Below, one piece after another: positions 14,245 to 38,816 of a stretch of 47,262 nt of DNA (the first letter of the stretch is position 1; each line of letters begins with the position of its first letter). The stretch spans positions 1 through 47,262 of the forward strand of contig JAAFJN010000039.1 in the NCBI GenBank assembly GCA_013298845.1. The letters run 5' to 3'. This DNA comes from Chitinophagales bacterium (lineage in GTDB: Bacteria; Bacteroidota; Bacteroidia; Chitinophagales; Saprospiraceae). The notes below the pieces were generated by a model, which searched no databases, was not told where the DNA came from, and saw only the letters and a list, made by a program, of their open reading frames with translations. A program made the position numbers and the translations under genes.

Positions 14245-15434
14245 GAAATTTTGTTGTTAGTGTGTAAAATAATTCCCCAATAAATAATTAATATAATCTG
14301 CGAAATAATTAATCCCGCCAACACGCCAGGTAACCCAAACTGCCGAATGAGTGGTTGCGAAAAGCACAGCGCAAACCCCAAAGTCATCAGATAACCCCGG
14401 AAAAACACGGAATGGAGTTCTAATGACCGGATCATGCATCGGACCGGCTGACCAATTCCCACGAACACGTACAATACACTCAAACCTTGCAAAACGTAGG
14501 CATATCCCGCATATTCCGAACCGCCCGCCAGCATCAGTATGTTGTCGGCACCCACATAAATGAGCAACAACAACGGGAAGTACACCGCCGCGCCCCTGAG
14601 ACTGGTCTTTTTTAAATAGTCCAGACCGGCGGCGAAATTTTGGTTGATTTTTGAAGCGGTTTGGGGTAAAATGTAGTTTTCAAAAGTTTGCAACAGCATA
14701 TTAAGTACCCCAAACAACGACTGCGACAGCCGCAAGGCACCCAACGCAACCGGCCCCAGTAGCGCACCCGATGCCACCACCAACAAATTGCCCGCCCACC
14801 ATTGGCTAATGGCCGTGAGGAAATACCATTTGCCCTGCCGGATATGGTACTGGAAATAGGTTTTGAATGCCGTTGAATCGAAGGCAAAAGGCCGAATGAG
14901 GGCCACCGAAAGGATAAAAACGAACGCGTAAACGGCACCCAAACCGGCCATGACCGGCGCTACGTGTGGGTTGCCCACGACCAGCAATACGCAACCCGTT
15001 AATATGCCGGATAGCAGGTCAATGATCAACGTCATTCCGGGGCGATTTTGGGCCAATAAGATCTTTCTGATTCCATCGTATAACACAAAGCCAAGGCCAA
15101 AAAACAACGGTGCCACCACCTCCGGGCAATGCAATGCCCATAGTACGACCGCCGCCCCAAGTACACCGGCAAAGGCCAATGCAACGTGCCCCCAAAACAC
15201 AAAACTGGCGTACGTACGAGGGCTTGAAACCCGCCCCGCGTGCACCTGAAAAGGTTGTACACTCCAGGCCCCAATGGCGCATACGGCCAGATAAATCCCC
15301 AATAACCACACCGAATACTGCCCAAAACCGGCGGGATCGAGTTGGCGCGCCAGCACAATGGTGGTTGCAAAACTGGTGCCGCTAAACACCACCTGATCGG
15401 CAATGGCCCCATATTTTTTAACTTTTATGGTCAT
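14220..15434 (-). CDS. Polysaccharide flippase (Wzx / oligosaccharide translocase family)
   Basis: A 404-residue protein with about twelve predicted membrane segments and no large loop. The N-terminus VFSGTSFATTIVLARQLDPA followed by GFGQYSV matches the polysaccharide_synt/MATE-like N-terminal signature (xxFxxxxxxAR.L.P.xFG.y). It should flip undecaprenyl-linked repeat units to the periplasm. The ATG at 15434 overlaps the end of the Wzz/Wzc-like gene by 17 bases. The position between chain-length regulator and glycosyltransferase fits a Wzx/Wzy pathway. Confidence 0.8.
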   Translation of the reverse strand: MTIKVKKYGAIADQVVFSGTSFATTIVLARQLDPAGFGQYSVWLLGIYLAVCAIGAWSVQPFQVHAGRVSSPRTYASFVFWGHVALAFAGVLGAAVVLWALHCPEVVAPLFFGLGFVLYDGIRKILLAQNRPGMTLIIDLLSGILTGCVLLVVGNPHVAPVMAGLGAVYAFVFILSVALIRPFAFDSTAFKTYFQYHIRQGKWYFLTAISQWWAGNLLVVASGALLGPVALGALRLSQSLFGVLNMLLQTFENYILPQTASKINQNFAAGLDYLKKTSLRGAAVYFPLLLLIYVGADNILMLAGGSEYAGYAYVLQGLSVLYVFVGIGQPVRCMIRSLELHSVFFRGYLMTLGFALCFSQPLIRQFGLPGVLAGLIISQIILIIYWGIILHTNNKISWKSFISF

Positions 15435-17649
15435 GGGAAACGGCGTTTTTAGGGTTTTTTAAAAAATAGGTCTTCTGGATTTTCCGAATCACCGACCGGA
15501 TAAAGCCGGGATTATAGCCGTCCCGGTTGAGGACGAAAAACGGGGCGGGAATCTGGTATTCCTGCACCACCAAATCGGCGGCGGCGATACATTTGGCCGG
15601 GGTCAGGCGGGTATCCACACAAATCAGATTCAGGGTGGCGACCTGCATCATGGCGAGGGTGAAATTTTCGTTGAATATTGAATTGATTAAAATCGTTTGA
15701 TCAAAGCGTTGGCTTTGTTCCTGTATCATTTGCTGCACCTGTTCCACGGGCACCTGTTTCATGGCATCGGTGAATAGGTCAATGTGCGTTTCGTGGTCGT
15801 TTTCGAGGGTAATTTGGTGGTAATGGGTGAAATGAGTGTCGTTTTTTAAGGTAATGACCCCTATTTTTTTACCTTGAATTTTTAGGGTATTGATGACGTG
15901 GGTGCTGATAAACGTTTGGCCCTGCGCGGGTGAAAAACCCGTAAAACACAAGATGCCACGCGGTTGTAGCATGTTTTTCACCTGCCATTGGGTGAGCATT
16001 CGGATAAAATGATTTTGGGTTTGGGCCGGGTTTTTGAGTTTGGGAACCGTTGCGGCTATCGGGATGGAACTATCCGTGACGATGGTATCGGCACTGTTCA
16101 CGCGGGCTTTTAAACTGTGCACCGTAAAAATCAAAATAATGGCGGCAATTAACCCCAAAATAACCGACACCCCTTTGATAATGGCATAATTGGGCGAAAC
16201 GGGCGTTTTGCTCACCGATGCGGGGGTAATAATTCGGTGAAACGCCATTTTGGCGGCTTTGGCAATTTCGGCTTCTATTTGTTTTTGGTTAAGAAAATTA
16301 TACGACTGCTGATAAATGTCAAATTCGCGGTTCAAAATAGCCATGACCCGTTCTTTTTCGGGCACGGGAATAAATGTTTGTTCGGCTACCGAAATATCGT
16401 CCAACAGGTTGTCGTATTTGGTTTGCAGGTTTTTTCGGGTGTTTTTAATACTTTCGGTCAGGTAAGAAGTGAGGTCGGCGATTTTTTCATCCACCACTTT
16501 TACCCGGTCGTCTTTGGGGGTGTATTCCAGCAACAAATCCCTTTTTTCGGCTTGCAACTGTTTGATTTTTTTAATCATTTCGGTCGAAAGCAAATCGGTA
16601 AATGCCTCAAAGTTGGGGGCGAGATCGAGAAAATCACCTTTGCCTTTTTCCACGTAATACTCCAGTTCCCGAATGGCATCCAAGTTCATTTTCAGGTTGG
16701 TTTGCTGAATTTGAAGTTGGGATATTTTGCGCAAATCGGTTTCGGTTTCCTGCCTCAAATTGGTGATGCCCTTGGCTTCGCGGTAGTTTAAAATGGCCAA
16801 TTCCGCCTCCGACAGTTTGCCGCTGATTTCTTTTATTCGGCCTTCCAGGAACCCGGAGGTTAAGTTCGCCGCTCCGAATTTGGTTTCGATATAATCTTCA
16901 ATGTAGGCTTCCGCCAGGGCATTGGGAAACTGCGCGGCTTTTTCCGGGTGACCACATTTATAACTGATCCGAATTACCGGCACGTCTTTATCCACCGAGG
17001 TTACATCGAGGTTCCGCAGCACTTCGGCCAACAGTCGGTCTTCGCTGTGGATCGTTACCTCGTATTGGTCGCTCCATTGCGCGTCTTTTTTGGCATCGAG
17101 CAGGGTTTTGTTCAGGCAAACGACCAATTTTGTTTCCCCCAAGGTGAGGGTATCGGTCAGGCGGCCGCTTTTTTGCTCGGCGTTGGGCGCAACAACAGTG
17201 TAAGTGCTGTCGGCTTTTACCGAAACCAAAAACGGTTTATTGTAGTGCCGGGCATCCATCGCAACAAACGAAATGGTGATGGGCGCATCGGGGAAAAGTT
17301 CGGTTTTTTTGAGGCTGCCCACCCGTTGAATCACTTGCGCAAAGGGTAGTTTTTGCAGTGCTTTTTTGAGCAGCGCGTGCGATTGCAACAGTTCTATTTC
17401 GGCCTGTATTTTTTGGGTATTGGCAAATACATCCAAATCTTTGTACAGGTTGCTGTTGGGCACGCCTTCGTTGTGGTCGGCCAGCCTTAGTTTGGCCGTG
17501 CTTTCGTACATGGGCGACACGTACGACAAATAATTGGACGCCATGAGGTAAGCCAGTACCATACTGCCCACGATAATGGTCCATCCCCGGAGGTATGGCC
17601 GGATAAAATGCAATTGTGAATTCATTGTATCGTTGTAATGCTTGCTCAA
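15418..17649 (-). CDS. Wzz/Wzc-type polysaccharide co-polymerase with degenerate tyrosine-kinase domain
   Basis: This is a 743-residue protein. A Wzz domain with an N-terminal TM (about residues 22-42) is followed by a long coiled coil (about 270-420), a GNVR-like segment and a second TM (about 505-525). The C-terminal about 170 residues align with BY-kinases, but the Walker A is PAQGQTFIS instead of GxGKT/S, so the ATP-binding lysine is missing. The Walker A' aspartates and a C-terminal tyrosine cluster are also not seen. It is probably a structural PCP/Wzz partner of Wza without kinase activity. The first codon is TTG (17649), overlapping the Wza stop by 4 bases; an ATG at 17625 is an alternative. 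Confidence 0.8.
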   Translation of the reverse strand: MSKHYNDTMNSQLHFIRPYLRGWTIIVGSMVLAYLMASNYLSYVSPMYESTAKLRLADHNEGVPNSNLYKDLDVFANTQKIQAEIELLQSHALLKKALQKLPFAQVIQRVGSLKKTELFPDAPITISFVAMDARHYNKPFLVSVKADSTYTVVAPNAEQKSGRLTDTLTLGETKLVVCLNKTLLDAKKDAQWSDQYEVTIHSEDRLLAEVLRNLDVTSVDKDVPVIRISYKCGHPEKAAQFPNALAEAYIEDYIETKFGAANLTSGFLEGRIKEISGKLSEAELAILNYREAKGITNLRQETETDLRKISQLQIQQTNLKMNLDAIRELEYYVEKGKGDFLDLAPNFEAFTDLLSTEMIKKIKQLQAEKRDLLLEYTPKDDRVKVVDEKIADLTSYLTESIKNTRKNLQTKYDNLLDDISVAEQTFIPVPEKERVMAILNREFDIYQQSYNFLNQKQIEAEIAKAAKMAFHRIITPASVSKTPVSPNYAIIKGVSVILGLIAAIILIFTVHSLKARVNSADTIVTDSSIPIAATVPKLKNPAQTQNHFIRMLTQWQVKNMLQPRGILCFTGFSPAQGQTFISTHVINTLKIQGKKIGVITLKNDTHFTHYHQITLENDHETHIDLFTDAMKQVPVEQVQQMIQEQSQRFDQTILINSIFNENFTLAMMQVATLNLICVDTRLTPAKCIAAADLVVQEYQIPAPFFVLNRDGYNPGFIRSVIRKIQKTYFLKNPKNAVSHDHKS

Positions 17650-18389
17650 AAAAGCCCCATAAAAACCGCTGCGGAGGTTAATGTGGTGGTAAATGGAATA
17701 ATGGTAGACACCCGTTTGTCAAATTCTTTGTACTTTTTGGAGGGCACTACCACGACATCGCCCGGGTGCAGGTTGATGTTTTTTTTGTGCCAATCGCCGT
17801 TTTTGCTGAGGTCAATGTTGGCAACGTACACGTGTTGGCCCACCTGCCGGAATACTTTGATGTACTTGGGGTTGGCGTAAAACTCCAGCCCTTTGCACCG
17901 GGTAATCATTTCCAGCAGGGTATTTTGCTCTTTATCCACGTTAATCACTTGCGGGTCGCGCACTTCGCCCAACACGGTAATTTCCCGATTTAACACTTTA
18001 ATATCCACCACGGGGACTTTTATCCATTCGCTGTATATAGATTTCAGGGTATCTTTCAACTGGATAATATTTTTGTTTTCCACGTGTAGAGTGCCAATTT
18101 TGGGTATTTCGACGTTGCCCTGGGCATCTACCATCAACCATTTTCCGTACACTTCGTTGGAGTTATAAATGCCGTAGGTGGACCCCACACTAATGTCATC
18201 CTGGCCCCAGACGCTGATGGTAATTTTGTCGTCTTTTCTAATTTGGTATTGGTATTCCTGGTTATTCCAAAAAATACTGTCCAACGCCGATACATCATTG
18301 TCGGCGGCGGAATCCACCAAAAGATTGGTCGTTTTGCAGGCCCCCAATAACCCGATAACCACCACGGAGAGCAGTAAAGGATATTTCAT
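17646..18389 (-). CDS. Polysaccharide export outer-membrane lipoprotein (Wza-like)
   Basis: A 247-residue protein. The signal peptide ends in the lipobox LLGAC (Cys 18), so it is lipid-anchored. The Poly_export domain begins YQIRKDDKITISVWGQDDIS, followed by SLBB/beta-grasp segments (VPVVDIKVLNREITVLGEV and HPGDVVVVPSKK). It should form the outer-membrane channel for the EPS, gated by the Wzz/Wzc-like partner encoded next. A C-terminal hydrophobic stretch (TIIPFTTTLTSAAVFMGLF) resembles the membrane-spanning helix of Wza-type proteins. It is three bases downstream of the lone response regulator gene. Confidence 0.88.
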   Translation of the reverse strand: MKYPLLLSVVVIGLLGACKTTNLLVDSAADNDVSALDSIFWNNQEYQYQIRKDDKITISVWGQDDISVGSTYGIYNSNEVYGKWLMVDAQGNVEIPKIGTLHVENKNIIQLKDTLKSIYSEWIKVPVVDIKVLNREITVLGEVRDPQVINVDKEQNTLLEMITRCKGLEFYANPKYIKVFRQVGQHVYVANIDLSKNGDWHKKNINLHPGDVVVVPSKKYKEFDKRVSTIIPFTTTLTSAAVFMGLF

Positions 18390-18392
18390 GGC

Positions 18393-18824
18393 CTACAAAA
18401 ATTTGAAAAGTGATTTTAACAGAGAAGGCTTTTGGGCCTGAATTAACGCCTGAATTTCTTCTATTTTGGCCAATACCGCTTTGATATTGGCGGGCAGGTG
18501 GAGGTCTTTGCGAATGTAATCGAAAGCGCCGTATTTGAGGGTGGCTACGGCGGTATCAATGTCTTCCTGGGCCGAAACCATCACCACAAAAATATCGGGG
18601 TTATACCTTTTTATTTTTTTGAGGGTTTCGTAACCCGAATACTCGTCCATCTGGTGGTCGAGAAAAACAATATCGGGGTTTTGGTGAATTTCGTGCAGGC
18701 AGTCTACACCACTGGTAAACGTGGTGAAGGTGTTTAAACCCTCGTCGGTGAGCAATTGCTGCATGATTTCGAGGTGAAATGTATCGTCGTCCACGATAAA
18801 AACTGACTTTTGTGCTTTTTGCAT
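18393..18824 (-). CDS. Stand-alone receiver (REC) protein at the head of EPS operon A
   Basis: A 143-residue protein. The start at 18824 (MQKAQKSVFIVDDD) is preferred over an upstream in-frame start at 18926, because that extension overlaps the terminator hairpin and has no REC similarity. The acidic pocket is VDDD, the phosphoacceptor lies in IVFLDHQMD, and the switch residues are MVSAQ and DYIRKD. There is no DNA-binding or enzymatic output domain; the C-terminal 25 residues are a basic helix. The SAQE...DYI.KD segment is very like that in the NtrC-type regulator at 22904, so both may take phosphate from the same HPt. It is the first gene of the EPS export operon. Confidence 0.85.
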   Translation of the reverse strand: MQKAQKSVFIVDDDTFHLEIMQQLLTDEGLNTFTTFTSGVDCLHEIHQNPDIVFLDHQMDEYSGYETLKKIKRYNPDIFVVMVSAQEDIDTAVATLKYGAFDYIRKDLHLPANIKAVLAKIEEIQALIQAQKPSLLKSLFKFL

Positions 18825-18854
18825 ATTACTGTTTGAATAGTTCAAAACACTATA

Positions 18855-18860
18855 TGCCAA
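18855..18860 (-). promoter_or_regulatory. TTGGCA box of operon A (candidate sigma54 -24 element)
   Basis: On the minus strand this reads TTTTTGGCA, 30 bases before the ATG at 18824. The same TTGGCA precedes the first genes of operons B and C. A canonical -12 GC is not at the expected distance, so the sigma54 reading is tentative. If it holds, the 5' leader is only about 9 bases. Confidence 0.4.
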
Positions 18861-18913
18861 AAAGAAGCCATTTTTACAAATGCTTGTTAAACAGCGAATT
18901 ACACAAAAATAAA

Positions 18914-18952
18914 AATCGCATACCATTCCACATTATGGAATAATATGCGATT
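18914..18952 (-). terminator. Hairpin terminator of the regulatory operon, containing the operon A upstream site
   Basis: On the minus strand AATCGCATA (18952-18944) pairs with TATGCGATT (18922-18914), and inside it ATTCCA pairs with TGGAAT. A T-rich tail follows (18913-18904). It lies 40 bases after the stop of the hybrid kinase gene at 18993. The loop region is the TTCCA-N5-TGGAA dyad, so one sequence may serve as both terminator and activator site. Confidence 0.65.
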
Positions 18953-18961
18953 GTGGAAATG
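18926..18961. promoter_or_regulatory. EPS upstream site A: TTCCACATTATGGAA plus half-site
   Basis: Near-palindrome TTCCA-N5-TGGAA at 18926-18940, then 8 bases later GATTGTGGAAA. There are exactly 65 bases between the dyad and the TTGGCA box. The same two-part arrangement occurs at 26718 and 32240. It is a candidate enhancer for the NtrC-family activator encoded in the locus. Confidence 0.65.
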
Positions 18962-18992
18962 GCAAACCCGTTGTTAACGATCGTCCAATAAC

Positions 18993-21900
18993 TCAATCGG
19001 CGGTTTGGGCCGCTTGGTTTTCGAGGGCTTCGACTACCCGTTTCAATACCTCGGCGATGGTGCGGGCCATGCCCACAAACGCCTCGTAGGGTGGGGTAGT
19101 GAGGTCGTATTGTTCTGCCGCACGGACCACCTCTTTCAAATCACCAATTCCCATTTGGTCAATGCTGGGTTTAATTTTATGGGCAATTTTTTTTATCGTT
19201 TCAAAATCCTCCGTGAGCAGGCATTTTTCAATGGTTGCAATGTTTTCCTTGGCCAGTTCAATAAAAAGCGCGACCAATTTTTCCACAAAAGTCTCGTTGC
19301 CACGGCTCATTTGCCGCAGTATCTCCAAGTCGTAGAGTGGGGTAGTGCTTTCCTGGGTAACCGGCGGTTGGGTCTCGCGCCCGGAAGCCAACGTAGAGAG
19401 GCTCAAAACGTGTTGGACTTTGTGAAAAAAGTCTTGTTCGTCGTAGGGTTTGGTAATAAAATCGTTCATGCCCTTGGTGAGGTACAAATCAATATCGTGT
19501 TTGAAGGCATTGGCCGTGAGCGCAATAACCGGCGTTTCGATGTGCAGGGTTTCGCGCAGGAAAATGGTGGCTTCCACCCCATCCATGACGGGCATTTGAA
19601 TGTCCATTAAAATAATGTCGAACTGGTTTTTTTGCAGCAATTCGGTGGCTACTTTGCCATTTTCGGCTTCGGTGACGGCAAATCCCAAAAAATCGAGGCT
19701 TTGGCTGGCGATAAAACGGTTCATTTCGTTGTCTTCAACGAGTAATGCTTTCCGCCCGGCAAAAGCACCTTCTTTAATTTGTTCACTTTTTGACACCAAT
19801 TGATTGGATGCCCCCACCGACAAGGTGAGTTCAAAACGAATGGCCGTGCCTTCGTTTTTGGTACTCTGCACCTCCATGATGCCGCCCATGAGATGCACCA
19901 AATCGTAGGAAATGGCCATGCCCAGCCCGGTGCCTTCATATTTGCGGTTCGATTCGTTTTGTTCCTGCGAAAATTTATCAAAAATGCGCGATACAAAGTT
20001 GTCGGACATGCCAATTCCGGTATCCACTACTTCCAAAACGATGGTTTGTTGGTGCGCATCTTCGTTTTTAACGGCGGCATTGAGCATAATGGACCCTTCC
20101 CGCGTAAATTTGATGGCGTTGCCAATCAGGTTGATTAACACCTGTCGCAGGCGGGTTTCATCACCAATTAGGACCGGTTTTACATCGGGGCTGACGTTTA
20201 TTTTGAAGTCGAGATTTTTGTCTTTTGCCTGCGAGTACATGATCGAATGCACGTTGTACAACAGCGAACTTGGGCTAAAGGGCTTTTCCACAATTTCCAT
20301 GTCACCCGACTCAATTTTGGCCACGTCGAGTACATTGTTGAGAATGGTGAGCAAATGTTTCGCCGAACTTTCCGACTGTTGCACGTAAAAACGCTGGTCG
20401 TGGGTGAGGTTTTCTTTGGTCAGTTGCCGAATCATGCCAATAATGACGTTGAGGGGCGTTCTGATTTCGTGGCTCATATTGGCCAAAAAAAGTTCTTTGG
20501 CTTTGGCCGCCGCTTCGGCAAAGGATTTGGCCCGGGCCAATTCGGCTTCGAGGCGTTTTTGTTCCGTAATATCCAGGTGAATCCCGATGCTCCCGATCTG
20601 TTGCCCTTTGTCGTTGTAATTGGGGGCACCGCTAATAAACCACCACCTTTTTCCGCCTTGTTTATTGGTCACTTCTATCTCATAACTATCGGATTTATCC
20701 TCAAGCCGGATCGCATTTTTTTCGTAAATGACATTTTTTTTCTTTTCATCCACGAACAAATTCGTAGCGTGTTGGCCTTTTAATTCGTCGAGGGAATAAC
20801 CCGACATATCACAAAAACTTTGGTTGGCGTACATAATAATATCGCCAAGGTCTACTTCGAGCAGCCCCAAATTCATGTTGGCAATAATGTTGCGGTATTT
20901 TTCTTCCTGCAAACGGAGTTGGTTTTCCCATTTTTGCCGGTTGCCGATGTTAATCAGCATTTGGCCAAATAAAAACAGGAGGCGTTTTTCCTTTTCGCTG
21001 TAATCGTAGTGTTGTTTCACCGAATCGAACCCCACGAAACCAAGCAATTCCTGACCATCGAGGAGCGGTATGGCAATCAGACTTTTGATGCCTTGTGGTT
21101 CCAGAATGGCTTTTAAGCCGCCGTCGCCATCGTCGGTTAAATCCGATACATTGGGGATATAAAAGGCGTTGCCCTGTTGGTGTTGCTCGATCCACTGCGG
21201 GAAAAACGCCATGGGCACGTTTTGCAGGTTGTTGATTTCGGGAGAAATTCCTTCGTTACACCATTCGTAGGTATTGGAGGTTGTTTTTTGGTCAAAGTCA
21301 TAATCAAAAATATACGCGCGGTCGGCCGATACAAACAAACCCATTTTTTGCAGCGAAAGGTTGATAACGCTGTTCACTTCTTTTGGGTTGAGATTGATGT
21401 ACGTAGAGGCAATATCAATGAGGGCTTCTTGCAAACGCACCTCCTGATCGAGGTTTTCCTGGGCCAAAATCTGCCGTGTTTTGTCCATCACCACGCCGTC
21501 TAAGCGAATGATATTTTGGTCATCATCGAAGATATATTTGCCCTGGTTTTGTACCCATTTCGTTTTGCCGGAGGGCGTAACGACTTGGTATTCCGCGTGA
21601 AATGCGCCAGTTTCTTGCAATTCCCGGGTAATTGTGTTGTATATTGGTCGGTTATTGGCCAAAATGACGGTTTCCCAGCCCATCGGGTTGTTGACGACGT
21701 GATCGGCCATTAACTCAAAAACACTTTCTACCGACGGCGAAATAAACACAACATCCATTTCCGGGATTTTTATGGAATAAACCACATCGGTCATTTCGTT
21801 TAAAATACTTTCTAACCGTGTTTTGGCAAGGTTCAATTCGTCATTCGACTTCTTTAAGGCCGCCGATTGCGTGTCAATTTTTTTAATTAAGTCCGAAAGT

Positions 21901-22328
21901 TCATTTTTATGAATTTCCGACTGTTTTAGCACGTGGAGGTAATCAAACGTGGGATCGTACGGTGGAAAATCGGTGATGGTTATTTTGTACGGTTTCAGTT
22001 GTTCGATGTTCATCACCCAAAGGCTGGACAAAAAGACCAACGCGTCCTGTTGGGGAATCCAGCGAAATGTGCCCCGGAATATGAGACCACTTTCTTTGTG
22101 TTTGGTGTAAAACCCGTCGTGAACGGCCGATTTTATCCAATCAAAAGTGATTTGTTCAATATAAGGTCTTTCTAACGTAAAATGCTCAAAATAAGGTTGG
22201 CCAATGGCATCACCAATGATTTTGTACAAACCCTGTCCCATTTTATGGATCGAAAGTGTACGATTTAACACGATAGAATACGGGAAAACCTCTAAAAGAA
22301 GTTCGGTTTCATCTATAAATTTATCCAT
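18993..22328 (-). CDS. Hybrid sensor histidine kinase with HNOBA input domain, REC and HPt
   Basis: This is a 1111-residue protein. Residues 1-165 form an H-NOX-associated (HNOBA) domain ending in a coiled coil. A PAS domain follows (about 170-290), then GAF (about 300-460), a second PAS (about 475-590) and HisKA with H620 (FLANMSHEIRTPLN). The HATPase_c domain has the N box LINLIGNAIKFT, the G1 box DTGIGM and the G2 box GTGLGMAI. REC has D909 (IILMDIQMPVMDG) and HPt has H1050 (KKIAHKIKPS). No transmembrane segment is evident, so it is cytoplasmic. It overlaps the H-NOX gene by 16 bases, and H-NOX proteins bind HNOBA partners. Phosphate should pass from H620 to D909 to H1050, then to the receivers at 22904 and 18393. 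It is followed by a terminator. Confidence 0.9.
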   Translation of the reverse strand: MDKFIDETELLLEVFPYSIVLNRTLSIHKMGQGLYKIIGDAIGQPYFEHFTLERPYIEQITFDWIKSAVHDGFYTKHKESGLIFRGTFRWIPQQDALVFLSSLWVMNIEQLKPYKITITDFPPYDPTFDYLHVLKQSEIHKNELSDLIKKIDTQSAALKKSNDELNLAKTRLESILNEMTDVVYSIKIPEMDVVFISPSVESVFELMADHVVNNPMGWETVILANNRPIYNTITRELQETGAFHAEYQVVTPSGKTKWVQNQGKYIFDDDQNIIRLDGVVMDKTRQILAQENLDQEVRLQEALIDIASTYINLNPKEVNSVINLSLQKMGLFVSADRAYIFDYDFDQKTTSNTYEWCNEGISPEINNLQNVPMAFFPQWIEQHQQGNAFYIPNVSDLTDDGDGGLKAILEPQGIKSLIAIPLLDGQELLGFVGFDSVKQHYDYSEKEKRLLFLFGQMLINIGNRQKWENQLRLQEEKYRNIIANMNLGLLEVDLGDIIMYANQSFCDMSGYSLDELKGQHATNLFVDEKKKNVIYEKNAIRLEDKSDSYEIEVTNKQGGKRWWFISGAPNYNDKGQQIGSIGIHLDITEQKRLEAELARAKSFAEAAAKAKELFLANMSHEIRTPLNVIIGMIRQLTKENLTHDQRFYVQQSESSAKHLLTILNNVLDVAKIESGDMEIVEKPFSPSSLLYNVHSIMYSQAKDKNLDFKINVSPDVKPVLIGDETRLRQVLINLIGNAIKFTREGSIMLNAAVKNEDAHQQTIVLEVVDTGIGMSDNFVSRIFDKFSQEQNESNRKYEGTGLGMAISYDLVHLMGGIMEVQSTKNEGTAIRFELTLSVGASNQLVSKSEQIKEGAFAGRKALLVEDNEMNRFIASQSLDFLGFAVTEAENGKVATELLQKNQFDIILMDIQMPVMDGVEATIFLRETLHIETPVIALTANAFKHDIDLYLTKGMNDFITKPYDEQDFFHKVQHVLSLSTLASGRETQPPVTQESTTPLYDLEILRQMSRGNETFVEKLVALFIELAKENIATIEKCLLTEDFETIKKIAHKIKPSIDQMGIGDLKEVVRAAEQYDLTTPPYEAFVGMARTIAEVLKRVVEALENQAAQTAD

Positions 22329-22864
22329 GTTACTTTAATAATTTCGTGTGTATCAGTCCCCGGTACGGATTCGAGGTGCTCGGTGCTTACGGTTGTTCCA
22401 AAAAACGTTCCCAAACCGTGCATCAGGCCATAAACAAAGGCGGTAAGTCCTTTTCTTTTGGAATAATAATGCAAATGAAGCGTGTTTTCATTGAGGTCCG
22501 AAATTTTAAACTCCGGCGGGGTTAGTTTGGGGTACATCATCATCACCCGGTTGTGGAACGAGGGCAAATTTAACAAAAAAGACCTAAAATTATCACCGCC
22601 GCTTTCTAAAAGGTAGCCATAATGATTTTTCCCGGTGTGCAGAATCCACCATTCACCAAACGATTTAAGTACCTCATCAACGGAGGTATTCAGTTCCTCG
22701 GCGATGGTTTGGGCCAAACTAAAAGTAACATCGTCATCGTAATTTTCGCTGCTGATAAAGTATTCGATATTGATGTTGCTTTTTGCCTTTATTTCTTCCC
22801 ATTTTTCGGTTCCGTAGTTAGCCACCACTAACTCTTCGATAGATTTGTTGACAATGCCGTACAT
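22313..22864 (-). CDS. H-NOX heme-based nitric oxide sensor
   Basis: A 183-residue protein, full length for the family. The start MYGIVNKSIEELV is typical. The heme-ligating histidine is H104 (LPSFHNRVMMMYP), and the heme-propionate motif YxSxR is Y133-Y134-S135-K136-R137. By alignment to the Thermoanaerobacter protein, the position of its O2-stabilising distal tyrosine (Y140) is A142 here. This predicts NO binding with poor O2 binding; that is an inference from motif spacing. It is cytoplasmic. It is encoded 39 bases after the NtrC-type regulator and overlaps the HNOBA kinase gene. In studied H-NOX/kinase pairs, NO-bound H-NOX inhibits the kinase. Confidence 0.92.
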   Translation of the reverse strand: MYGIVNKSIEELVVANYGTEKWEEIKAKSNINIEYFISSENYDDDVTFSLAQTIAEELNTSVDEVLKSFGEWWILHTGKNHYGYLLESGGDNFRSFLLNLPSFHNRVMMMYPKLTPPEFKISDLNENTLHLHYYSKRKGLTAFVYGLMHGLGTFFGTTVSTEHLESVPGTDTHEIIKVTWINL

Positions 22865-22903
22865 GATGTTTTTTTACGTTTGTTTTTACGGGAGAGAGAC
22901 GCT

Positions 22904-24253
22904 TTATATTTTTATTTCGCCCCTTTTGAGCATGTTGTAAATTTTGGACTTGGCGATTTGGAGTTTTTCGGCGGCCTGCACTACGTTATTATCGTATTTT
23001 TGGATGTAATGCGTAATGATTTCGATTTCAAAATCTTTCAGGCTTTTTTCGTCGTCGGAGTAGGGCTTGGTGTCGCTAATTTGGTAAAAAGTGAGGTCTT
23101 GGGCTTTTATTTCGTGGCCATCGGCCATAACGCAGGCCAGATCAATGACGGCCTTTAGTTCGCGGACGTTTCCGGGCCACGTGTATTTTCGGAGTTTGAT
23201 TTTGGCCGATTCGTGCAATTGCAACACGGGTGTTTTGTTGCTTTTGGCGTAGGCTTCGATAAAATGTTTGCTCAGGATAATCACATCGTTGTCGCGTTGT
23301 CGCAGGGGCGGCAATTCGATGGGCAGGCCCACAATTCTAAAAAACAAATCTTCGCGAAAGCGACCGGCTTTTACTTCTTCCGCGAGGTTTTTATGGGTAG
23401 CGGTAATCAGCCTGATATCCACTTTGATGGGTTTATTGGCCCCCACCCGAACAATTTCGCGTTCTTGCACGGCGCGCAGCAATTTGCTTTGCAGGGTCAG
23501 GTTGAGTTCGCCGATTTCGTCCAAAAACAGGGTGCCGCCCTGGGCTTCTTCAAATTTCCCGATTTTAGTGCCGGTGGCCCCGGTAAAGGCTCCTTTTTCG
23601 TGCCCAAACAACTCGCTTTCGACCAATTCGTTGGGAATGGCGCTCATGTTTACGGCCACAAACGTTTTTTTCTTTCGGTCGCTGTTAAAATGGATGGCTT
23701 TGGCGTACACTTCTTTGCCGGTTCCGGTTTCACCGGTTAACGATACGTTGATATTGGAATTGATGGCTTTTTGAAGCAACGAAAAGGTCTTTTGAATGGC
23801 GGTACTTTGGCCAATAATCGTGTTTTCAAAGTGGAATTTTTGCCCTAATTGCTCCTTGAGGTCTTCCACCTCCTGGCGCAGGCTAATGTTTTCGCGGATT
23901 TGGATAATTGATTTCCACAGGTGCTCTTTGGTGTGTTCGTCTTTGATGATATAATCTTTGGCACCCGCTTTGAGTAAATCTACGGCAACATTAATGGCTT
24001 CCTGGGCGCTGATAATAATCACGGGAATTTGTTTGTTGCGGGCCTGTATTTCTTGCAAAAGTTTACCACCACTCATGTCCGGCAGGCCAAAATCAACGCA
24101 GACCAAATCCGGTTTTTTGTAGAGGTTGTTTAATAACGCCTCGCCCGTAGCAAACCACTCCAAGTCATAATCGGGGTTCATACCCAGATGATGTTTTAAT
24201 ATTTGACCGTACCATTGGTCATCTTCCACGATAAAAATTTTAAATGATGCCAT
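22904..24253 (-). CDS. NtrC-family sigma54-dependent response regulator
   Basis: This is a 449-residue protein. REC spans residues 1-115, with D54 (VCVDFGLPDM) and K104 in DYIIKD. The AAA+ sigma54-interaction domain spans about 145-370, with Walker A GETGTGKE (174-181), the sigma54-contacting GAFTGA (221-226), Walker B TLFLDEIGEL and a sensor II arginine region. The C-terminal Fis-type helix-turn-helix ends NNVVQAAEKLQIAKSKIYNMLKR. It should activate sigma54 promoters from upstream dyads when phosphorylated. The three TTCCA-N5-TGGAA sites before the EPS operons are the natural candidates. It is the first gene of operon R, which has its own housekeeping-type promoter. Confidence 0.92.
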   Translation of the reverse strand: MASFKIFIVEDDQWYGQILKHHLGMNPDYDLEWFATGEALLNNLYKKPDLVCVDFGLPDMSGGKLLQEIQARNKQIPVIIISAQEAINVAVDLLKAGAKDYIIKDEHTKEHLWKSIIQIRENISLRQEVEDLKEQLGQKFHFENTIIGQSTAIQKTFSLLQKAINSNINVSLTGETGTGKEVYAKAIHFNSDRKKKTFVAVNMSAIPNELVESELFGHEKGAFTGATGTKIGKFEEAQGGTLFLDEIGELNLTLQSKLLRAVQEREIVRVGANKPIKVDIRLITATHKNLAEEVKAGRFREDLFFRIVGLPIELPPLRQRDNDVIILSKHFIEAYAKSNKTPVLQLHESAKIKLRKYTWPGNVRELKAVIDLACVMADGHEIKAQDLTFYQISDTKPYSDDEKSLKDFEIEIITHYIQKYDNNVVQAAEKLQIAKSKIYNMLKRGEIKI

Positions 24254-24272: not shown

Positions 24273-24301
24273 CAAAGTTACCCGCATTTTTGGTACTTCA
24301 A
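24273..24301 (-). promoter_or_regulatory. Housekeeping (Bacteroidota) promoter of the regulatory operon
   Basis: On the minus strand TTG (24301-24299), an 18-base spacer, then TAACTTTG (24280-24273), a match to TAnnTTTG. The ATG of the NtrC-type gene is 20 bases downstream. No TTCCA-N5-TGGAA dyad or TTGGCA box lies here, so the regulators appear to be expressed independently of the EPS operons. Confidence 0.65.
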
Positions 24302-24310: not shown

Positions 24311-25384
24311 TTAGCGTTGCATTTCCATAAGCCTTATTTTTTGTCGCCATACAATAACCTGATGATGAAAGCCCAAGATCGAGGTGCCAGCGTAAAAAAC
24401 AAATACCATACCAATGATGGCCCAGGTTAGCCCGGCTACGTTATTGATACAAAAGCCAATCACCATAATCGCAAGCGCCGCTGCGCTTAACAACAGGCTT
24501 ACCGTTTGGTGTCGTAAACCTAAAAATAGAACCAAATGGTGCAAATGGGTTTTATCGGCGTGAAACGGACTAACTCCGGCCTTGAGCCGTTTTCTGAACA
24601 CCCGCAACGCATCAAAAACCGGGATCACCAAAATGGAAATAATACCAATCAGGATCCACGAAAAAGGCCGACCTTCTGCCCCCGTGGGCAATAAACGGAT
24701 ACTCACTACACTAATCAATAACCCCAGGGTCATGGAACCAGCATCGCCCATGAATATCTTCTGCGTTCGGCTAAAATTAAACCTCAGTAACGCCACCAAT
24801 GCCCCCGCGTACGACAACAAAAGGACAAACACGTTCTCGTGCCCCGTTTGTGCCGCAATAATGGCCAATACCACCGCCGATACCAAACTCAACCCCGCCG
24901 CGAGACCATCAATACCGTCCATCAGGTTAATGGCGTTGACAATACCGGTGATGACCAAAATTGTTGCCCAATATTGTTGCCCATAACTAAGTTCCTCAAT
25001 GCCCCAAATACCATAAAAGGTCTCGATGCGTACCCCGGCATCAAAAACACAATGGGCCAGCAGGAGTTGTACCACCAATCGGAAACTGGCGCGAATGTCG
25101 TAGCGGTCGTCGAGGGTACCAATGATGAGCAAAATGAACGATGCCACAAAAATGTTTTTGATCAACACCAGGTCTCCCCATTGGTGCATGAACAAGGCCG
25201 CCGCCAGCCACGAAGCCCCAAACATGGCAATGCCGCCCACCAACGGCACCGGCTGATGGTGTATTTTACGACGGTTGGGTTGATCCGTCAATTGAATAAC
25301 AAAGGCTATTTTTCGCATTAAAGGAATAAATAACCAGGCCAGGATACACGAAAAAAGGGGCGTTAAAAAATAAGAAACGAACAT
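24311..25384 (-). CDS. Undecaprenyl-phosphate sugar-1-phosphate transferase (MraY/WecA family)
   Basis: A 357-residue protein with about ten or eleven TM helices. The start at 25384 (MFVSYFLTPLFSCILAWLF) gives a typical first helix; an upstream start at 25495 would run into the preceding gene. Catalytic motifs are seen in order: RKIHHQPVPLVGG, GTLDDRYDI (metal-binding DD), NAINLMDGIDGLAAG, FMGDAGSMTLG and the cytoplasmic HADKTHLHH histidine loop. It should start each repeat unit by moving a HexNAc-1-phosphate (GlcNAc in WecA) to undecaprenyl phosphate at the inner membrane. It is second in operon B, 22 bases after the glycosyltransferase gene. Confidence 0.88.
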   Translation of the reverse strand: MFVSYFLTPLFSCILAWLFIPLMRKIAFVIQLTDQPNRRKIHHQPVPLVGGIAMFGASWLAAALFMHQWGDLVLIKNIFVASFILLIIGTLDDRYDIRASFRLVVQLLLAHCVFDAGVRIETFYGIWGIEELSYGQQYWATILVITGIVNAINLMDGIDGLAAGLSLVSAVVLAIIAAQTGHENVFVLLLSYAGALVALLRFNFSRTQKIFMGDAGSMTLGLLISVVSIRLLPTGAEGRPFSWILIGIISILVIPVFDALRVFRKRLKAGVSPFHADKTHLHHLVLFLGLRHQTVSLLLSAAALAIMVIGFCINNVAGLTWAIIGMVFVFYAGTSILGFHHQVIVWRQKIRLMEMQR

Positions 25385-25406
25385 AGTATGTGTGTTTTTT
25401 AGAAAA

Positions 25407-26609
25407 TTAATACCGCAGGTGCGCGGCTCCTTTTTGTAACAAATCCGGGTAGTGTAGGCGGGAAATCCGGGTAAAAACCGATGGTTTTTGCGCAATTTCC
25501 AGCGATTCGGCTACCAATTGACCGTACTTTTGCGCCACCAGCGGCCACGTGTAACGCCGCCGGGCAATACGTTCCATTTTTTGCCCAATGGTTTTGAGTT
25601 TGGCGGTGTAGATATCCGCAATCTGCCGTTTTAGTTCTTCTTTATTGTTGAAATACAAGGCTTGGTTTTCGGTCGTAACGCGGTTGTACGATACGCCGTA
25701 CGCCAACACGGGCAAACCCAAATACATGGCCTCTACCAACGACGGGTTGGTACCACCGGCCGAGTGCCCGTGAACGTACAATGCCGCATTGCTGCGCAAA
25801 ACATCTAACCGTTGTTGGTTGTAAATCGGGTCCAGAATGTGGATATTTGGGTGCTGCGAATACGTGTTTTTCAGGTCTTGCCCGTACGCGCTTTTGTCCC
25901 AGTTGCCCACAATAACGAGGGGCAATTTTGCCGCGTTGGCAAACACCTCCAAAATGAGGTGCACATTGTTTTCCGGCTCAATTCGGCACACTTTAAAGGC
26001 GTAAGGCCGGGCGAGAAACGGGTATTGTTCCGTATCCGTCGCCGTTACCGGCACTTTGAGGGTGTGGTCGGCCCCGTATTCGATAATTCGACTGAGTGAT
26101 CCGTAGCGGGCGGCGGTATAATCCTGAATCGCCTCGTTGTCGGAAATATCAATGTGCGAATACTTTACCGCTATGCTTTCGGCCCAAAACAAATACCATT
26201 TGGCCAACACATTCCATTTGTCCCTTTTCCATTCGATACCATCAATGGAGATAATAATTCTTTTGCGGGTAAACAACCGCACAAAAGGTAAGATCCAGGC
26301 TCCGGCCACCCCTAAAATCAGCAGTACATCTGCATACCATAAAGCGTGTAAAATGGACAATGTATCGTAGGGAATACTTTGGATGCCATTGGCATCGAGG
26401 GGGAGGTACCGGAGCCTGGCATTTTTGTAACTTGCCTTGCGTACATCTTTCGGATATTTTTTGCCCGAACAATATAAAGTAATGTCGTAGTGATCGGTCA
26501 TGTTTTCAATGAGGTGTTCGGCCAAGGTTTCAAAACCTCCGTAATTGGCGGGCACCCCAACCGTGCCAATAATGGCTATTCTTTTTTTCTGTGTTTTTTC
26601 CTGATTCAT
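25407..26609 (-). CDS. DUF1972-type glycosyltransferase (rhamnosyltransferase-like, GT4)
   Basis: This is a 400-residue protein. The start KKRIAIIGTVGVPANYGGFE is the DUF1972 signature found in Cps2T/WsaF-like rhamnosyltransferases. The C-terminal GT4 half has FKVCRIEPENNVHLILEVFA (donor-binding) and GHSAGGTNPSLVEAMYLGLP. It probably transfers an early sugar, perhaps rhamnose, onto the lipid-linked sugar; the sugar is an inference from family. It heads operon B, with a TTGGCA box 48 bases and an upstream dyad 108 bases before its ATG. Confidence 0.85.
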   Translation of the reverse strand: MNQEKTQKKRIAIIGTVGVPANYGGFETLAEHLIENMTDHYDITLYCSGKKYPKDVRKASYKNARLRYLPLDANGIQSIPYDTLSILHALWYADVLLILGVAGAWILPFVRLFTRKRIIISIDGIEWKRDKWNVLAKWYLFWAESIAVKYSHIDISDNEAIQDYTAARYGSLSRIIEYGADHTLKVPVTATDTEQYPFLARPYAFKVCRIEPENNVHLILEVFANAAKLPLVIVGNWDKSAYGQDLKNTYSQHPNIHILDPIYNQQRLDVLRSNAALYVHGHSAGGTNPSLVEAMYLGLPVLAYGVSYNRVTTENQALYFNNKEELKRQIADIYTAKLKTIGQKMERIARRRYTWPLVAQKYGQLVAESLEIAQKPSVFTRISRLHYPDLLQKGAAHLRY

Positions 26610-26657
26610 CTTAATTTTATTTTAACAGGTTATCGGGAATTACTAAATACAATTCGA

Positions 26658-26663
26658 TGCCAA
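26658..26663 (-). promoter_or_regulatory. TTGGCA box of operon B (candidate sigma54 -24 element)
   Basis: On the minus strand CTTTTGGCATCG, 48 bases before the ATG at 26609. A TTG follows at about the -12 distance but without the usual GC. Exactly 54 bases separate it from the upstream dyad. Confidence 0.45.
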
Positions 26664-26717: not shown

Positions 26718-26756
26718 TTCCATAATGTGGAAAAGTTGAGCGATTTGGAAAAATGC
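26718..26756. promoter_or_regulatory. EPS upstream site B: TTCCATAATGTGGAA plus half-site
   Basis: The dyad lies at 26718-26732; 9 bases later GATTTGGAAAA begins at 26742. It has the same arrangement and orientation as sites at 18926 and 32240. It sits in the gap between the ends of operons C and B, upstream of operon B. Confidence 0.65.
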
Positions 26757-26775: not shown

Positions 26776-27855
26776 TTACAACAACGAGGAAATGTCGCGG
26801 CACATCGTTGCTTCTTCAAACAATGCGGTACGCGCTTTGGCGGCTTGGCTCATGCGTTCGTATTGGTGCTTGTTTTGCATAATTTGCCCAATGGCCTCGT
26901 TGAGTTGTTGTCGGTTTCGCGCGTCGGCAACGAGGCCGGTAACGCCTTCTTCGATCACCTCCAAAATACCGCCCACCGGGGGCACAATGGCCGGAAGCCC
27001 GTACGCCATGCCTTCAATAATGGTCAGGCCAAATGTCTCGACCCAGCCATCGGGGAGCGACAGGTTCACCACCACATCGGCCCATTGGTAAAAGGGATGG
27101 ATGTTTTTTTGCGCCGAAAACAGGATCAGGTTGGCGGGTAGTTGGCGGCTCCCGAAAAATGCCGCCATTTCCGCCTCGGTGGCGTTCAGCACCAATCGGA
27201 ATTGATACCCCGGATGGTCGCCTGCCAATTGCACAAATTCCCACACGCCTTTGTATTTTTTTAATGAACACACCATCAAAACGCGGGTGGGTTCTTCGCT
27301 CCTGTTTTTACCGGAAGCGGCTTGCAAAAAAGACGACTCCAAGGCATTGTACACCACCCGTCCGGGTACCTGCGTGAGGCAGTGCGCCGCCTGCACGTAG
27401 CGGGAAACATACACGATCTCGGCGGCGGTCAACCGGATCACCCGTTGCAAAAACCATTTCAGTAAGCGCGGTTGAATGGTGCTTTCGTGTACGTGGTAAA
27501 TCACGCGGCAACCTTTTATTTTTCCCGCTAAAGCCGCACCAAAAGGCAATACCGTGTTCACGTAAACGAGGTCGTTTTTTTGAAGTTTTAATAACAACAT
27601 CAGCATCAACATACTTTGGCTAATGGTATAAAAAACGAGGCGCAACCAGGGATTTGACCGGAATTGATACCAGGCGTGGTGATAAATAACCCCCGGAATG
27701 CCACTCAAAAAGCCATTGGTGCCGGAATTGGTACACAAGTGAATTTCCCAACGGCCTTTGAGCGCCCACGACCGCACCAATTGGCTTAATACCTTGGGGC
27801 TGCCGCTGCGGTCGTTGAGCAGGTGACAAACAAAAATTCTTTGCGGCGGCTTCAT
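26776..27855 (-). CDS. Family 4 glycosyltransferase
   Basis: A 359-residue GT-B protein. The N-terminal half has HLLNDRSGSPKVLSQLVRSW and the acceptor-side HVHESTIQPRLL. The C-terminal half has VLMVCSLKKYKGVWEFVQLA and the EX7E motif in WVETFGLTIIEGMAYGLPAI. It probably extends the EPS repeat unit in the cytoplasm; specificity is unknown. It is the last gene of operon C and its ATG overlaps the previous stop as ATGA. Confidence 0.85.
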   Translation of the reverse strand: MKPPQRIFVCHLLNDRSGSPKVLSQLVRSWALKGRWEIHLCTNSGTNGFLSGIPGVIYHHAWYQFRSNPWLRLVFYTISQSMLMLMLLLKLQKNDLVYVNTVLPFGAALAGKIKGCRVIYHVHESTIQPRLLKWFLQRVIRLTAAEIVYVSRYVQAAHCLTQVPGRVVYNALESSFLQAASGKNRSEEPTRVLMVCSLKKYKGVWEFVQLAGDHPGYQFRLVLNATEAEMAAFFGSRQLPANLILFSAQKNIHPFYQWADVVVNLSLPDGWVETFGLTIIEGMAYGLPAIVPPVGGILEVIEEGVTGLVADARNRQQLNEAIGQIMQNKHQYERMSQAAKARTALFEEATMCRDISSLL

Positions 27856-29072
27856 AATGTTGCGTAAAGTTTTTGGAGTTGCTCGCCCCTTTTATCCCAA
27901 TGAAATGCCCGCAGAAAATGCGCCCGCGCTGCCCGGCGCATGATGGCTCTTTTTTCGGTATCGCGGTACAAACCCAACAAGGCCCCGGACAAATGTTCGA
28001 CCGTTTCCGAATAGGCACCCTTGGGTACCCGGATGCCGCATTCGGGCGTGATAAACGCCCCCGGTCCTTCGTTATCCATGCACACTACCGGCAGCCCAAA
28101 CGACAAGGCCTCGGCCACCACCATACCCGCCCCTTCGTGCGAAGGAAACAACAACACCGATGCACTTTTGAACCGCTCCAGCAGTTCGGGCCGGTCAATC
28201 CACGACAATATGTCAACGTGGTACGAAAGGTTGTTTTTTTCAACCAGTTTTTTCAATTTTTGCTCTTCCGCGCCACTGCCCACCAGCACCAAACGGCATT
28301 TTTGTCTTTCGTAAAAAGGAACTTGTTCGATAAAACGGGCAAATGCCTCAATGGTGAGGTCGAAACCTTTGAGTGGCACAAATCGCCCGGCGGAAATCAC
28401 CGTAAACTCGGTCGTTGCGGCCATATCTGGCCACCACCCAAAATCCTGGGTCGCCACCGAGGGCATAATGCTGTAATTGCGGGTGAGTTTAAGTTGTTGG
28501 AGCACCCCGCTGTTCATACACAAAATATGGCTGGCCTTGGTTTTAGTTTGGTGCAGGGAAAATGAAAAATTCCAAAAATACTGTTTTACCAACCAAATCA
28601 AACGGTCTTTTAACCAATACTTCCAGCCGTACGGTGCCAGATATTGGCCCGGAATTAACGGGTGGTGCCCCACCGAACCCCAAACGAAGGGTTTGCCCGT
28701 TTTCCATAAAAACGAAGGGGTCCAGTCATTGTGAAAATTCAAATTATGCACAATGTCAAATACCAGGTTTTGTTTTTTGATAAACGAAATAACCCCGTAC
28801 TGCCACATGAGATAATACAACATGGCGCCCCGACTGCCTTTTTTCCAAAAACGCATCCAATAAGGCAAATCAAAGTACAAAAACTGAATGTTGTTGTAAA
28901 TATCGTCGGGGTTCTCCGACATGTAACGCTCAATGGCGGCGCGGTTGTTTTCGCGGGTAATGGCGATAACTTTGTGAAAACGCCCAATTTGGCGGACAAA
29001 ATTCCAGCCCATGCCGTCTTCTGAACCTTTGTACGGGTGAATGGCATACGCCGTTGCTAATATGGTTTTCAT
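27852..29072 (-). CDS. Family 4 glycosyltransferase
   Basis: A 406-residue GT-B protein. The start TILATAYAIHPYKGSEDGMG followed by WNFVRQI is a well-known GT4 subgroup opening in EPS clusters. Later motifs are SAGRFVPLKGFDLTIEAFA, LVGSGAEEQKL and SHEGAGMVVAEALSFGLPVV with the EX7E pair. It should transfer one sugar of the repeat unit. It overlaps both neighbours by 4 bases (ATGA), which shows translational coupling within operon C. Confidence 0.87.
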   Translation of the reverse strand: MKTILATAYAIHPYKGSEDGMGWNFVRQIGRFHKVIAITRENNRAAIERYMSENPDDIYNNIQFLYFDLPYWMRFWKKGSRGAMLYYLMWQYGVISFIKKQNLVFDIVHNLNFHNDWTPSFLWKTGKPFVWGSVGHHPLIPGQYLAPYGWKYWLKDRLIWLVKQYFWNFSFSLHQTKTKASHILCMNSGVLQQLKLTRNYSIMPSVATQDFGWWPDMAATTEFTVISAGRFVPLKGFDLTIEAFARFIEQVPFYERQKCRLVLVGSGAEEQKLKKLVEKNNLSYHVDILSWIDRPELLERFKSASVLLFPSHEGAGMVVAEALSFGLPVVCMDNEGPGAFITPECGIRVPKGAYSETVEHLSGALLGLYRDTEKRAIMRRAARAHFLRAFHWDKRGEQLQKLYATL

Positions 29073-29761
29073 ATTCTAGATTTTAAAATTTTTGCGGGAA
29101 CACCCCCAATTACGGAATGGCTGGGAAAAGACCGGGTCACCACCGCGCCAGCGGCAACGATGCACCCTTCGCCAATTTCCACCCCGTCCAAAATGGTTAC
29201 TTTGCTGCCAATCCAGCAGTTGTTGCCAATTTTTATCCCTTGTCGGGTAACGCCCTGGTGCCGAATGGCCGTTGAAAGATTTTGCGCAATATGATTCTCT
29301 GGGTGGCAACTAAAGTACTGGCCAATGATACAGTCGTCGCCAATCTCGAGGCCGCCCCCTCCACCGAGGTAGGCATACTCGCCAATTCCCACCTGATGCC
29401 CAATTTTGATAAATTCGCCGGGGTGCTGCAACGAAGTGGAAACCACCAATCGGCTAAAGGCCCCGATACCCACCCGATTGCCCATGTGAATACCCTGTTT
29501 CCCGAGTGCGTTCAGATAGACGTGATCGCCCAATTTCAGGAATTGGCCAAAGTGAATTTTGGGGGCGTTGTACCAGCGTACATTTTTGCCAAGCATCGCC
29601 ATTTTTGGGTTTTTTAAACACAATAACCACGAAAAACCCCGTAGCAGGCTGCAACTTGTTGCCCACGCAAACGAAAGAATGGCCACCGTATTTACTTCGT
29701 TGTTCACGTGAAAATCGGGGTTGCGCCATTGTACTGCTTTTTCGATCATGCGCCGTATCAT
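29069..29761 (-). CDS. Left-handed beta-helix (hexapeptide) acyltransferase
   Basis: A 230-residue protein. The start is placed at 29761 (MIRRMIEKAVQW), where ATGA overlaps the stop of the upstream gene; an in-frame start 18 codons earlier would overlap it by 58 bases. The C-terminal about 150 residues are hexapeptide repeats (IGIGAFSRLVV, IGDDCIIGQYF, IGNNCWIGSKVTILDGV, IGEGCIVAAGAVVT) ending in the WbbJ/LacA-type IGGVPAKIL. The catalytic histidine is probably in SCHPENH. It should O-acetylate, or otherwise acylate, a sugar of the repeat unit using an acyl-CoA. Confidence 0.85.
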   Translation of the reverse strand: MIRRMIEKAVQWRNPDFHVNNEVNTVAILSFAWATSCSLLRGFSWLLCLKNPKMAMLGKNVRWYNAPKIHFGQFLKLGDHVYLNALGKQGIHMGNRVGIGAFSRLVVSTSLQHPGEFIKIGHQVGIGEYAYLGGGGGLEIGDDCIIGQYFSCHPENHIAQNLSTAIRHQGVTRQGIKIGNNCWIGSKVTILDGVEIGEGCIVAAGAVVTRSFPSHSVIGGVPAKILKSRI

Positions 29762-32142: not shown

Positions 32143-32179
32143 CGTTTGACCGTTTGACAACACTCTAGTTCAAAACCTT

Positions 32180-37301: not shown

Positions 37302-37307
37302 GTGCTT

Positions 37308-38813: not shown

Positions 38814-38816
38814 TAT

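Follow-up and report, generated by a model that had tools for sequence, protein, structure and literature searches.

A predicted nitric oxide-gated phosphorelay and a shared predicted operator within an exopolysaccharide cluster of a Chitinophagales bacterium

In Shewanella, Vibrio and Legionella, nitric oxide (NO) signalling by H-NOX proteins and histidine kinases leads mainly to cyclic di-GMP (c-di-GMP) enzymes or to quorum sensing, and transcriptional outputs are also known, namely HnoC in S. oneidensis and iron genes in V. fischeri (PMC8738867). The Vibrio kinase HqsK is inhibited by NO-bound H-NOX (PMC8738867), and the kinase NosK is inhibited by NosP, a heme NO sensor of the FIST family (PMC12570481). 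In Proteobacteria, PrsK, PrsR and RpoN control PEP-CTERM genes beside exopolysaccharide (EPS) loci (PMC1569441, PMC9850573). Here, we describe an EPS cluster with an embedded H-NOX gene in the window, i.e. the whole 47,262-nt contig JAAFJN010000039.1 of a Chitinophagales bacterium with a 6.37 Mb genome. We propose that an NO-gated His-Asp-His-Asp phosphorelay directly controls sigma54-dependent transcription of this one cluster without c-di-GMP, and we assign this reading a probability of roughly 0.6.

The locus resembles the described H-NOX/kinase systems by its biofilm theme and by a stand-alone H-NOX encoded with a histidine kinase that feeds response regulators, but differs from what is reported there by a sigma54 activator among EPS genes and by a genome in which no GGDEF protein was found (PMC8738867). 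With PrsK/PrsR it shares an NtrC-type activator near EPS genes and an upstream motif, which in the PrsR system is followed by a -24/-12 site on average 63 nt further on; PrsK is, however, a transmembrane kinase, and the PrsR-system motif contains TTTACA, whereas that of the window is TTCCAN5TGGAA (PMC1569441, PMC9850573). The window activator also stands apart from this system with a TIGR02915 score of 366.8 bits, below the cut-off of 502.6. The NosP/NosK pair has its counterpart in related loci, where a FIST protein is encoded beside the kinase in the H-NOX slot, but not in the window, which has no FIST gene (PMC12570481). DctD2 of Vibrio vulnificus is likewise an enhancer-binding protein that switches EPS clusters, yet its reported signal is dicarboxylates or a sugar-transport protein and not NO (PMC9040800). 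As transcriptional outputs of H-NOX kinases are already known, the novelty lies in their junction with a sigma54 EPS activator, in the shared operator and in genomes apparently free of GGDEF proteins. The parts are of known kinds, and the circuit and its operator appear undescribed in the open PubMed Central (PMC) literature, in which our searches listed no paper on a Bacteroidota circuit that places H-NOX or NosP beside EPS genes. An earlier note on this DNA knew of no described example from Bacteroidota.

The relay and its predicted sensor

The relay genes are located in the middle of a minus-strand Wzx/Wzy-type EPS cluster (32163 down to 11874), where genes for a WecA-like protein, an NtrC-type activator, H-NOX, an HNOBA hybrid kinase, a receiver, Wza and Wzc follow each other. 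Pfam domains and open reading frames (ORFs) confirm what the earlier note had described: activator, H-NOX and kinase stand between two halves of the EPS cluster, and a lone receiver precedes the export genes. The activator (22904..24253, minus strand) contains a receiver domain with D54, an AAA+ domain with GAFTGA at 221 and a Fis-type helix-turn-helix (HTH). Response_reg and Sigma54_activat (E 5e-68) are matched in Pfam, and the HTH scores 19.4 bits against a cut-off of 22, yet can be aligned with the HTH of relatives. With these features and RpoN encoded in the same genome, the protein is a sigma54 enhancer-binding response regulator.

The hybrid kinase (18993..22328, minus strand) has the domain order HNOBA-PAS-GAF-PAS-HisKA-HATPase-REC-HPt. 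Each of the relay residues claimed earlier, i.e. H620 (SHEIRTP) in HisKA, D909 (MDIQMP) in REC and H1050 (AHKIKPS) in HPt, was found in the sequence, the Hpt match being 24.6 bits and thus exactly at the Pfam cut-off. The HNOBA N-terminus, the kinase core and the adjoining position of the gene, which overlaps that of H-NOX by 16 nt, assign it to the H-NOX-associated kinases. The stand-alone receiver (minus strand) is listed as an ORF that starts at 18926 and has its putative phosphoacceptor at D90 in that numbering. Because related receivers start near the ATG at 18824, the gene probably spans 18393..18824, and the 34 codons ahead of this ATG in the listed ORF are probably leader DNA. The C-terminal tail of the receiver is conserved among relatives.

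The H-NOX protein (22313..22864, minus strand; PF07700, E 8e-51) is the only one found in its genome and has an HNOB domain, the proximal H104 and the YxSxR motif of H-NOX proteins. Its closest solved relative is Alr2278 (E 2e-40), presumably from Nostoc, followed by guanylate cyclase beta (3e-27), and the entries 4u99 and 2kii, which we take to be Shewanella H-NOX, match at 4e-13 and weaker. H104, W73 and F143 align opposite H105, W74 and M144 of Alr2278, and the two proteins share the same heme residues, with the roles that we presume for them in Alr2278; we know of no EPS or sigma54 context for the latter. Since no tyrosine occupies the F143 position, the pocket predicts an NO-selective H-NOX that would exclude O2. 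Y145, two residues past F143, calls for caution on O2 exclusion, although it is not retained in more distant H-NOX proteins.

No GGDEF protein, which would mark an NO/H-NOX network acting on biofilms through c-di-GMP, was found in the window's own genome (98% complete) by a search that was positive in 8 of 14 control genomes and did not cover EAL and PilZ. The search was likewise negative in all 16 genomes to which it was applied, the own and 15 related ones (92-100% complete in the 11 for which completeness is stated). Seven of them have an H-NOX-type cluster (own, L009-L013 and G045; L and G numbers denote loci and genomes), eight have FIST-type sets as described below (G426, G442, G397, G232, G343, G366, G070 and G115), and G200 has neither sensor.

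A shared palindrome upstream of three operons

The 15-mer TTCCATAATGTGGAA, given in the direction of transcription, is a predicted activator site at 18926..18940, upstream of receiver-Wza-Wzc. It is repeated in inverted form at 26718..26732, upstream of the operon GT1972-WecA-NtrC-HNOX-kinase (GT, glycosyltransferase), and again at 32240..32254, upstream of 801-aa gene-Hexapep-GT3-GT2. An extra half-site is located exactly 13 nt upstream of each palindrome (18954-18958, 26746-26750 and 32268-32272, respectively). The own genome contains TTCCAN5TGGAA at 14 places (backwards control, 5), nine within ORFs and five intergenic. Three of the five intergenic palindromes are the identical 15-mer, one per EPS operon, which is absent from the other 11 of the 14 places. 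Around 34 palindromes, drawn from 20 loci picked for carrying this activator or EPS cluster, the half-site distance of 13 nt occurs nine times, and the next commonest distances occur three times. In the window, each of the three palindromes is followed by a -24-like TGGC that starts 55 nt downstream. With related loci included, 27 TTGGC words lie near palindromes, 13 of them at 52-54 nt. This layout of palindrome, half-site and -24 element is common to many related loci, though not to all.

The sigma54-like -24/-12 element TGGCTTCTTTTTGGCA before the receiver gene (18855..18870, minus strand) has a score that was reached in 1% of 300 shuffles. The corresponding element at 26647..26662 (minus strand) has a -24-like TGGCAT without the -12 GC, and in TGGCAAAGGTTTTGA (32169..32184, minus strand) the -12 GC is replaced by GA. 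When 17 regions upstream of receiver genes were scored with sigma54 weights against 300 mononucleotide shuffles, a sigma54-like site exceeded 95% of the shuffles in 14 of them, in L056 far away, and the exact TTCCAN5TGGAA was present in 13 of the 17.

A composite of palindrome, 51-56 nt and TTGGC occurs in 51 of 395 genomes of the phylum, i.e. in 14 of 26 with the activator versus 37 of 369 without it (Fisher 2e-7). This enrichment was set aside as support, because nine of the 14 activator genomes match at loci that had yielded the motif (window, L050, L051, L053, L054, L057, L094, L095 and L098). The remaining matches are inside ORFs in G350 and G343 (L164, L165), at L162 and L163 in G149, and also in G204 and G378. 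One G149 site is followed after about 50 nt by a 208-aa ORF, NusG-like by eye, and the other has no ORF close behind.

Several observations weigh against the proposed control. GG-N10-GC is retained only at the receiver promoter of the window, and no significant sigma54-like site precedes the receiver gene in L051, L053 and L054. TTGGC at 52-54 nt is missing at the second sites of L051, L052, L011 and L013, at the receiver sites of L053 and L054 and at both sites of L096, and at other palindromes its spacing is 72-84 nt. Within the window, the plain sigma54 consensus is not enriched (42 matches versus 57 expected), and palindromes with at most one mismatch are no more frequent than by chance (4 versus 2.6). 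After removal of the source loci, 5 of 26 versus 37 of 369 genomes carry the composite, which is no clear excess and provides no independent genome-wide support. The case for an operator rests on sequence identity, position and spacing, and its putative link to the activator on co-occurrence. A further intergenic palindrome of the own genome (L120, C2 about 71742), with TGGCACATTTAGTGCA 73-76 nt away, joins palindrome and sigma54-like site with no gene behind it in the ORF list; it may mark a further target or an unannotated RNA, or be due to chance. A housekeeping-like promoter, TTG-N18-TAACTTTG (24273..24301, minus strand), also stands 20 nt ahead of the NtrC ATG, as judged by eye from what we take to be the Bacteroidota consensus. 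NirK, the copper nitrite reductase and a possible NO source, was not found in a search that did not include the cd1 type. Finally, a close H-NOX was present in none of 36 same-genus genomes among the 60 relatives searched.

Three side observations concern the palindromes and their surroundings. The palindrome at the receiver gene sits, by eye, in a terminator-like hairpin past the kinase gene, and the intergenic palindrome L131 of the own genome precedes a gene that is icd-like by eye. IHF-like words of the TTGAT type occur between operator and -24 element at 26670-26690 and 32195-32212 of the window, and in 6 of 21 linkers versus 0.3 in mononucleotide shuffles.

Gene order and sensors in related genomes

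The earlier note suggested a search for this gene order in other Bacteroidota. In the GTDB species collection, a scan that finds close relatives only yielded NtrC-HNOX-kinase followed by receiver-Wza-Wzc in five of five loci, from two Saprospiraceae metagenome bins, Aquiflexum lacus, Cognataquiflexum rubidum and C. aquatile. In these loci, the H-NOX is 75-80% identical to that of the window and receiver-Wza-Wzc follows 0.3-5 kb beyond the kinase, Wzc being clipped by the locus end in three. G045 (L035), from the same taxonomic order, keeps the gene order at 52% H-NOX identity. The recurrence in five close loci and in the distant L035 argues against a chance assembly. That an H-NOX two-component set with unrelated targets merely came to lie inside an EPS cluster is therefore very improbable. 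Elsewhere in the phylum, H-NOX is indeed found with other kinases away from EPS genes (L025-L028, L031-L034), and L029 and L030 contain NtrC-HNOX-kinase without EPS genes within the stretch fetched. However, FIST-type loci also retain activator-kinase-receiver-EPS, and the shared 15-mer ties the three operons of the window together.

At E <=1e-30, H-NOX was detected in 10 of the 395 phylum genomes, with the EPS arrangement in the window's own only. Besides L029 and L030, the other seven have different surroundings, with a FIST protein in at most six. The 36 same-genus genomes gave three weak H-NOX matches (E 1e-11 to 6e-6). As no close H-NOX was found in these and the EPS arrangement in none of the other nine phylum genomes with H-NOX, the window cluster may have been gained by transfer. 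In the Aquiflexum/Cognataquiflexum loci L010, L011 and L013 (about 14020-18635), a 1537-aa protein is encoded between kinase and receiver, with FG-GAP, DUF7619 and a type 9 secretion system (T9SS) tail (Pfam, in L010). Its gene is preceded, at about 107 nt, by a separate palindrome, and the protein may be a matrix component that belongs to the same regulon. L012 has at this place (14018-15488) a two-gene insert that by eye resembles an AbiE-type toxin-antitoxin system.

A receiver-based search, with matches in 12 of the 395 genomes, revealed a second version of the locus. Six loci from same-class genomes (L050-L055) have the order NtrC - FIST protein - hybrid kinase - receiver, and L050, L051, L052 and L054 continue with Wza, Wzc, flippase, GT, Wzy and the 801-aa gene, i.e. 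the window cluster with FIST replacing H-NOX. In G426 and G442 (L094, L095), WecA precedes NtrC-FIST just as it precedes NtrC-HNOX in the window. The G442 kinase shares 54% identity with the window kinase across residues 169-1074 and has no HNOBA match. L057 has neither H-NOX nor FIST. In an NCBIfam scan of nine FIST proteins, seven matched NosP alone, at 24-70 bits against a cut-off of 450 that none of the nine reached; among the seven, those of L027 and L028 are encoded in H-NOX operons that do not include this activator. The FIST protein of L095 and that of L094, which is cut by the contig end, had no match. As FIST proteins need not sense NO, their reading as distantly NosP-like is a lead only.

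The activator itself was matched 30 times in 26 of the 395 genomes, and the next gene encodes H-NOX in three, FIST in 11, the kinase directly in 11 and something else in five cases, some contigs ending early. For 19 of the 30, no EPS gene homologue was found within the stretch fetched; control of EPS would thus belong to part of the family. In a tree of 41 activator rows, in which the H-NOX share is inflated by rows retrieved through the H-NOX search, the H-NOX label requires four changes, and the window falls with the five close loci into a single clade (100/100). NtrC-FIST also occurs in four other same-genus genomes (L114-L117). The own genome holds a second NtrC-FIST-kinase set (L093, on C19), in whose 19.5 kb neither an exact palindrome nor a homologue of the window EPS genes was found. 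In L025-L028, two NO-sensor-like families adjoin each other, in the order receiver, H-NOX, HNOBA kinase, NosP-like FIST, second kinase and regulator, the LytTR of the regulator being Pfam-checked in L027 only.

These neighbourhoods also bear on the ligand. It is possible, though unlikely, that the relay acts on EPS via the activator but answers another signal, with H-NOX sensing O2, CO or redox state, or with PAS/GAF domains as sensors that H-NOX tunes. The PAS, GAF and PAS domains of the kinase, the nearby Y145 and the 11 activator matches in which a kinase comes next and no H-NOX or FIST was found in between are compatible with this. In contrast, the M144 position, with the role that we presume for it, holds no tyrosine, and a second family that includes an NO sensor occupies the same slot.

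The receiver and the export genes would be compatible with another output. Wza (17646..18389, minus strand) is headed by the receiver in the window and all five close loci, and the Wzc-like co-polymerase (15418..17649, minus strand) has lost its Walker A lysine, a loss seen in 9 of 12 readable rows of these clusters. GK(S/T) is retained in L035, L049 and L110, and the loss may imply that tyrosine kinase control over export was lost as well. With its conserved tail, the receiver could act on Wza/Wzc export, the main output being post-transcriptional and the operators serving a different enhancer-binding protein. We consider this rather improbable, since the operator layout accompanies the activator family in H-NOX-type and FIST-type loci alike, upstream of sigma54-like elements; transcriptional control by the activator remains our preferred reading.

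The other genes of the cluster, all on the minus strand, complete a Wzx/Wzy-type set. A Wzx-like flippase (14220..15434; a weak Pfam match barely above the cut-off), a glycosyltransferase (13147..14244) and a Wzy-like polymerase of the O-antigen ligase family (11874..13145) follow Wzc. The WecA-like sugar-phosphate transferase (24311..25495) and a DUF1972/glycosyltransferase group 1 protein (25407..26609) are encoded ahead of the activator, preceded by two glycosyltransferases (26776..27855 and 27852..29072), a hexapeptide transferase (29069..29815) and the 801-aa protein (29758..32163). The latter has thymidylate-kinase-like and choline-kinase-like parts, both under the Pfam cut-offs, and homologues with 36-42% identity in L048-L052, L054 and L056 and weaker ones in L035, L053 and L110. 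Upstream of the cluster (35454-40442), DUF1800, DUF1501/PKD and PKD/T9SS genes are found consecutively.

Proposed circuit and its implications

In the proposed circuit, HNOBA would be the docking site of H-NOX on the hybrid kinase, and the NO-bound form of H-NOX would set kinase activity. Phosphate would pass from H620 via D909 and H1050 to D54 of the activator, and the lone receiver could be a second phosphate target or sink, or act on export. The activator is predicted to bind TTCCA-N13-TTCCA-N5-TGGAA before the three EPS operons and to open sigma54 promoters whose -24 element starts 55 nt downstream. As one target operon leads into the sensor genes, feedback would result. Because NO-bound H-NOX inhibits HqsK and NosP inhibits NosK, NO might lower kinase activity and thereby EPS transcription, a sign that we guess at about 60:40.

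The earlier suggestion that NO acts on transcription of all EPS genes without c-di-GMP is thus strengthened in part, by the predicted operator shared by three EPS operons with a sigma54-like element, by the negative GGDEF search and by the presence of rpoN. Binding of heme and NO, control of the kinase, transfer of phosphate and recognition of the operator are still predictions; two of three sigma54-like elements deviate at the -12 GC, and EPS control would belong to part of the family. The earlier note had neither the operators nor the recurrence of the gene order in other genomes, nor the FIST/NosP-like sensor that can stand in for H-NOX. A wider reading, to which we give somewhat less than even odds, is a modular NO-to-EPS switch in Bacteroidota without c-di-GMP, in which a sigma54 activator, a three-half-site operator and a hybrid phosphorelay are combined with unrelated heme NO sensors, either H-NOX with HNOBA or NosP-like FIST proteins, that have replaced one another on several occasions.

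Biofilms widely respond to NO as a cue, and most of the routes known for it run via c-di-GMP or quorum sensing. If the proposed circuit is correct, a direct route from NO to EPS transcription would account for a possible NO response in Bacteroidota that have no GGDEF proteins, and a named DNA site together with cultured hosts (Aquiflexum, Cognataquiflexum) would make it testable. If two unrelated families of sensor have replaced each other in this slot, this would be a comparative argument for NO, rather than another PAS/GAF signal, as the input. Slime production in these bacteria would then be under an NO-dependent control that is independent of the second messenger central to the best-studied biofilm cases.

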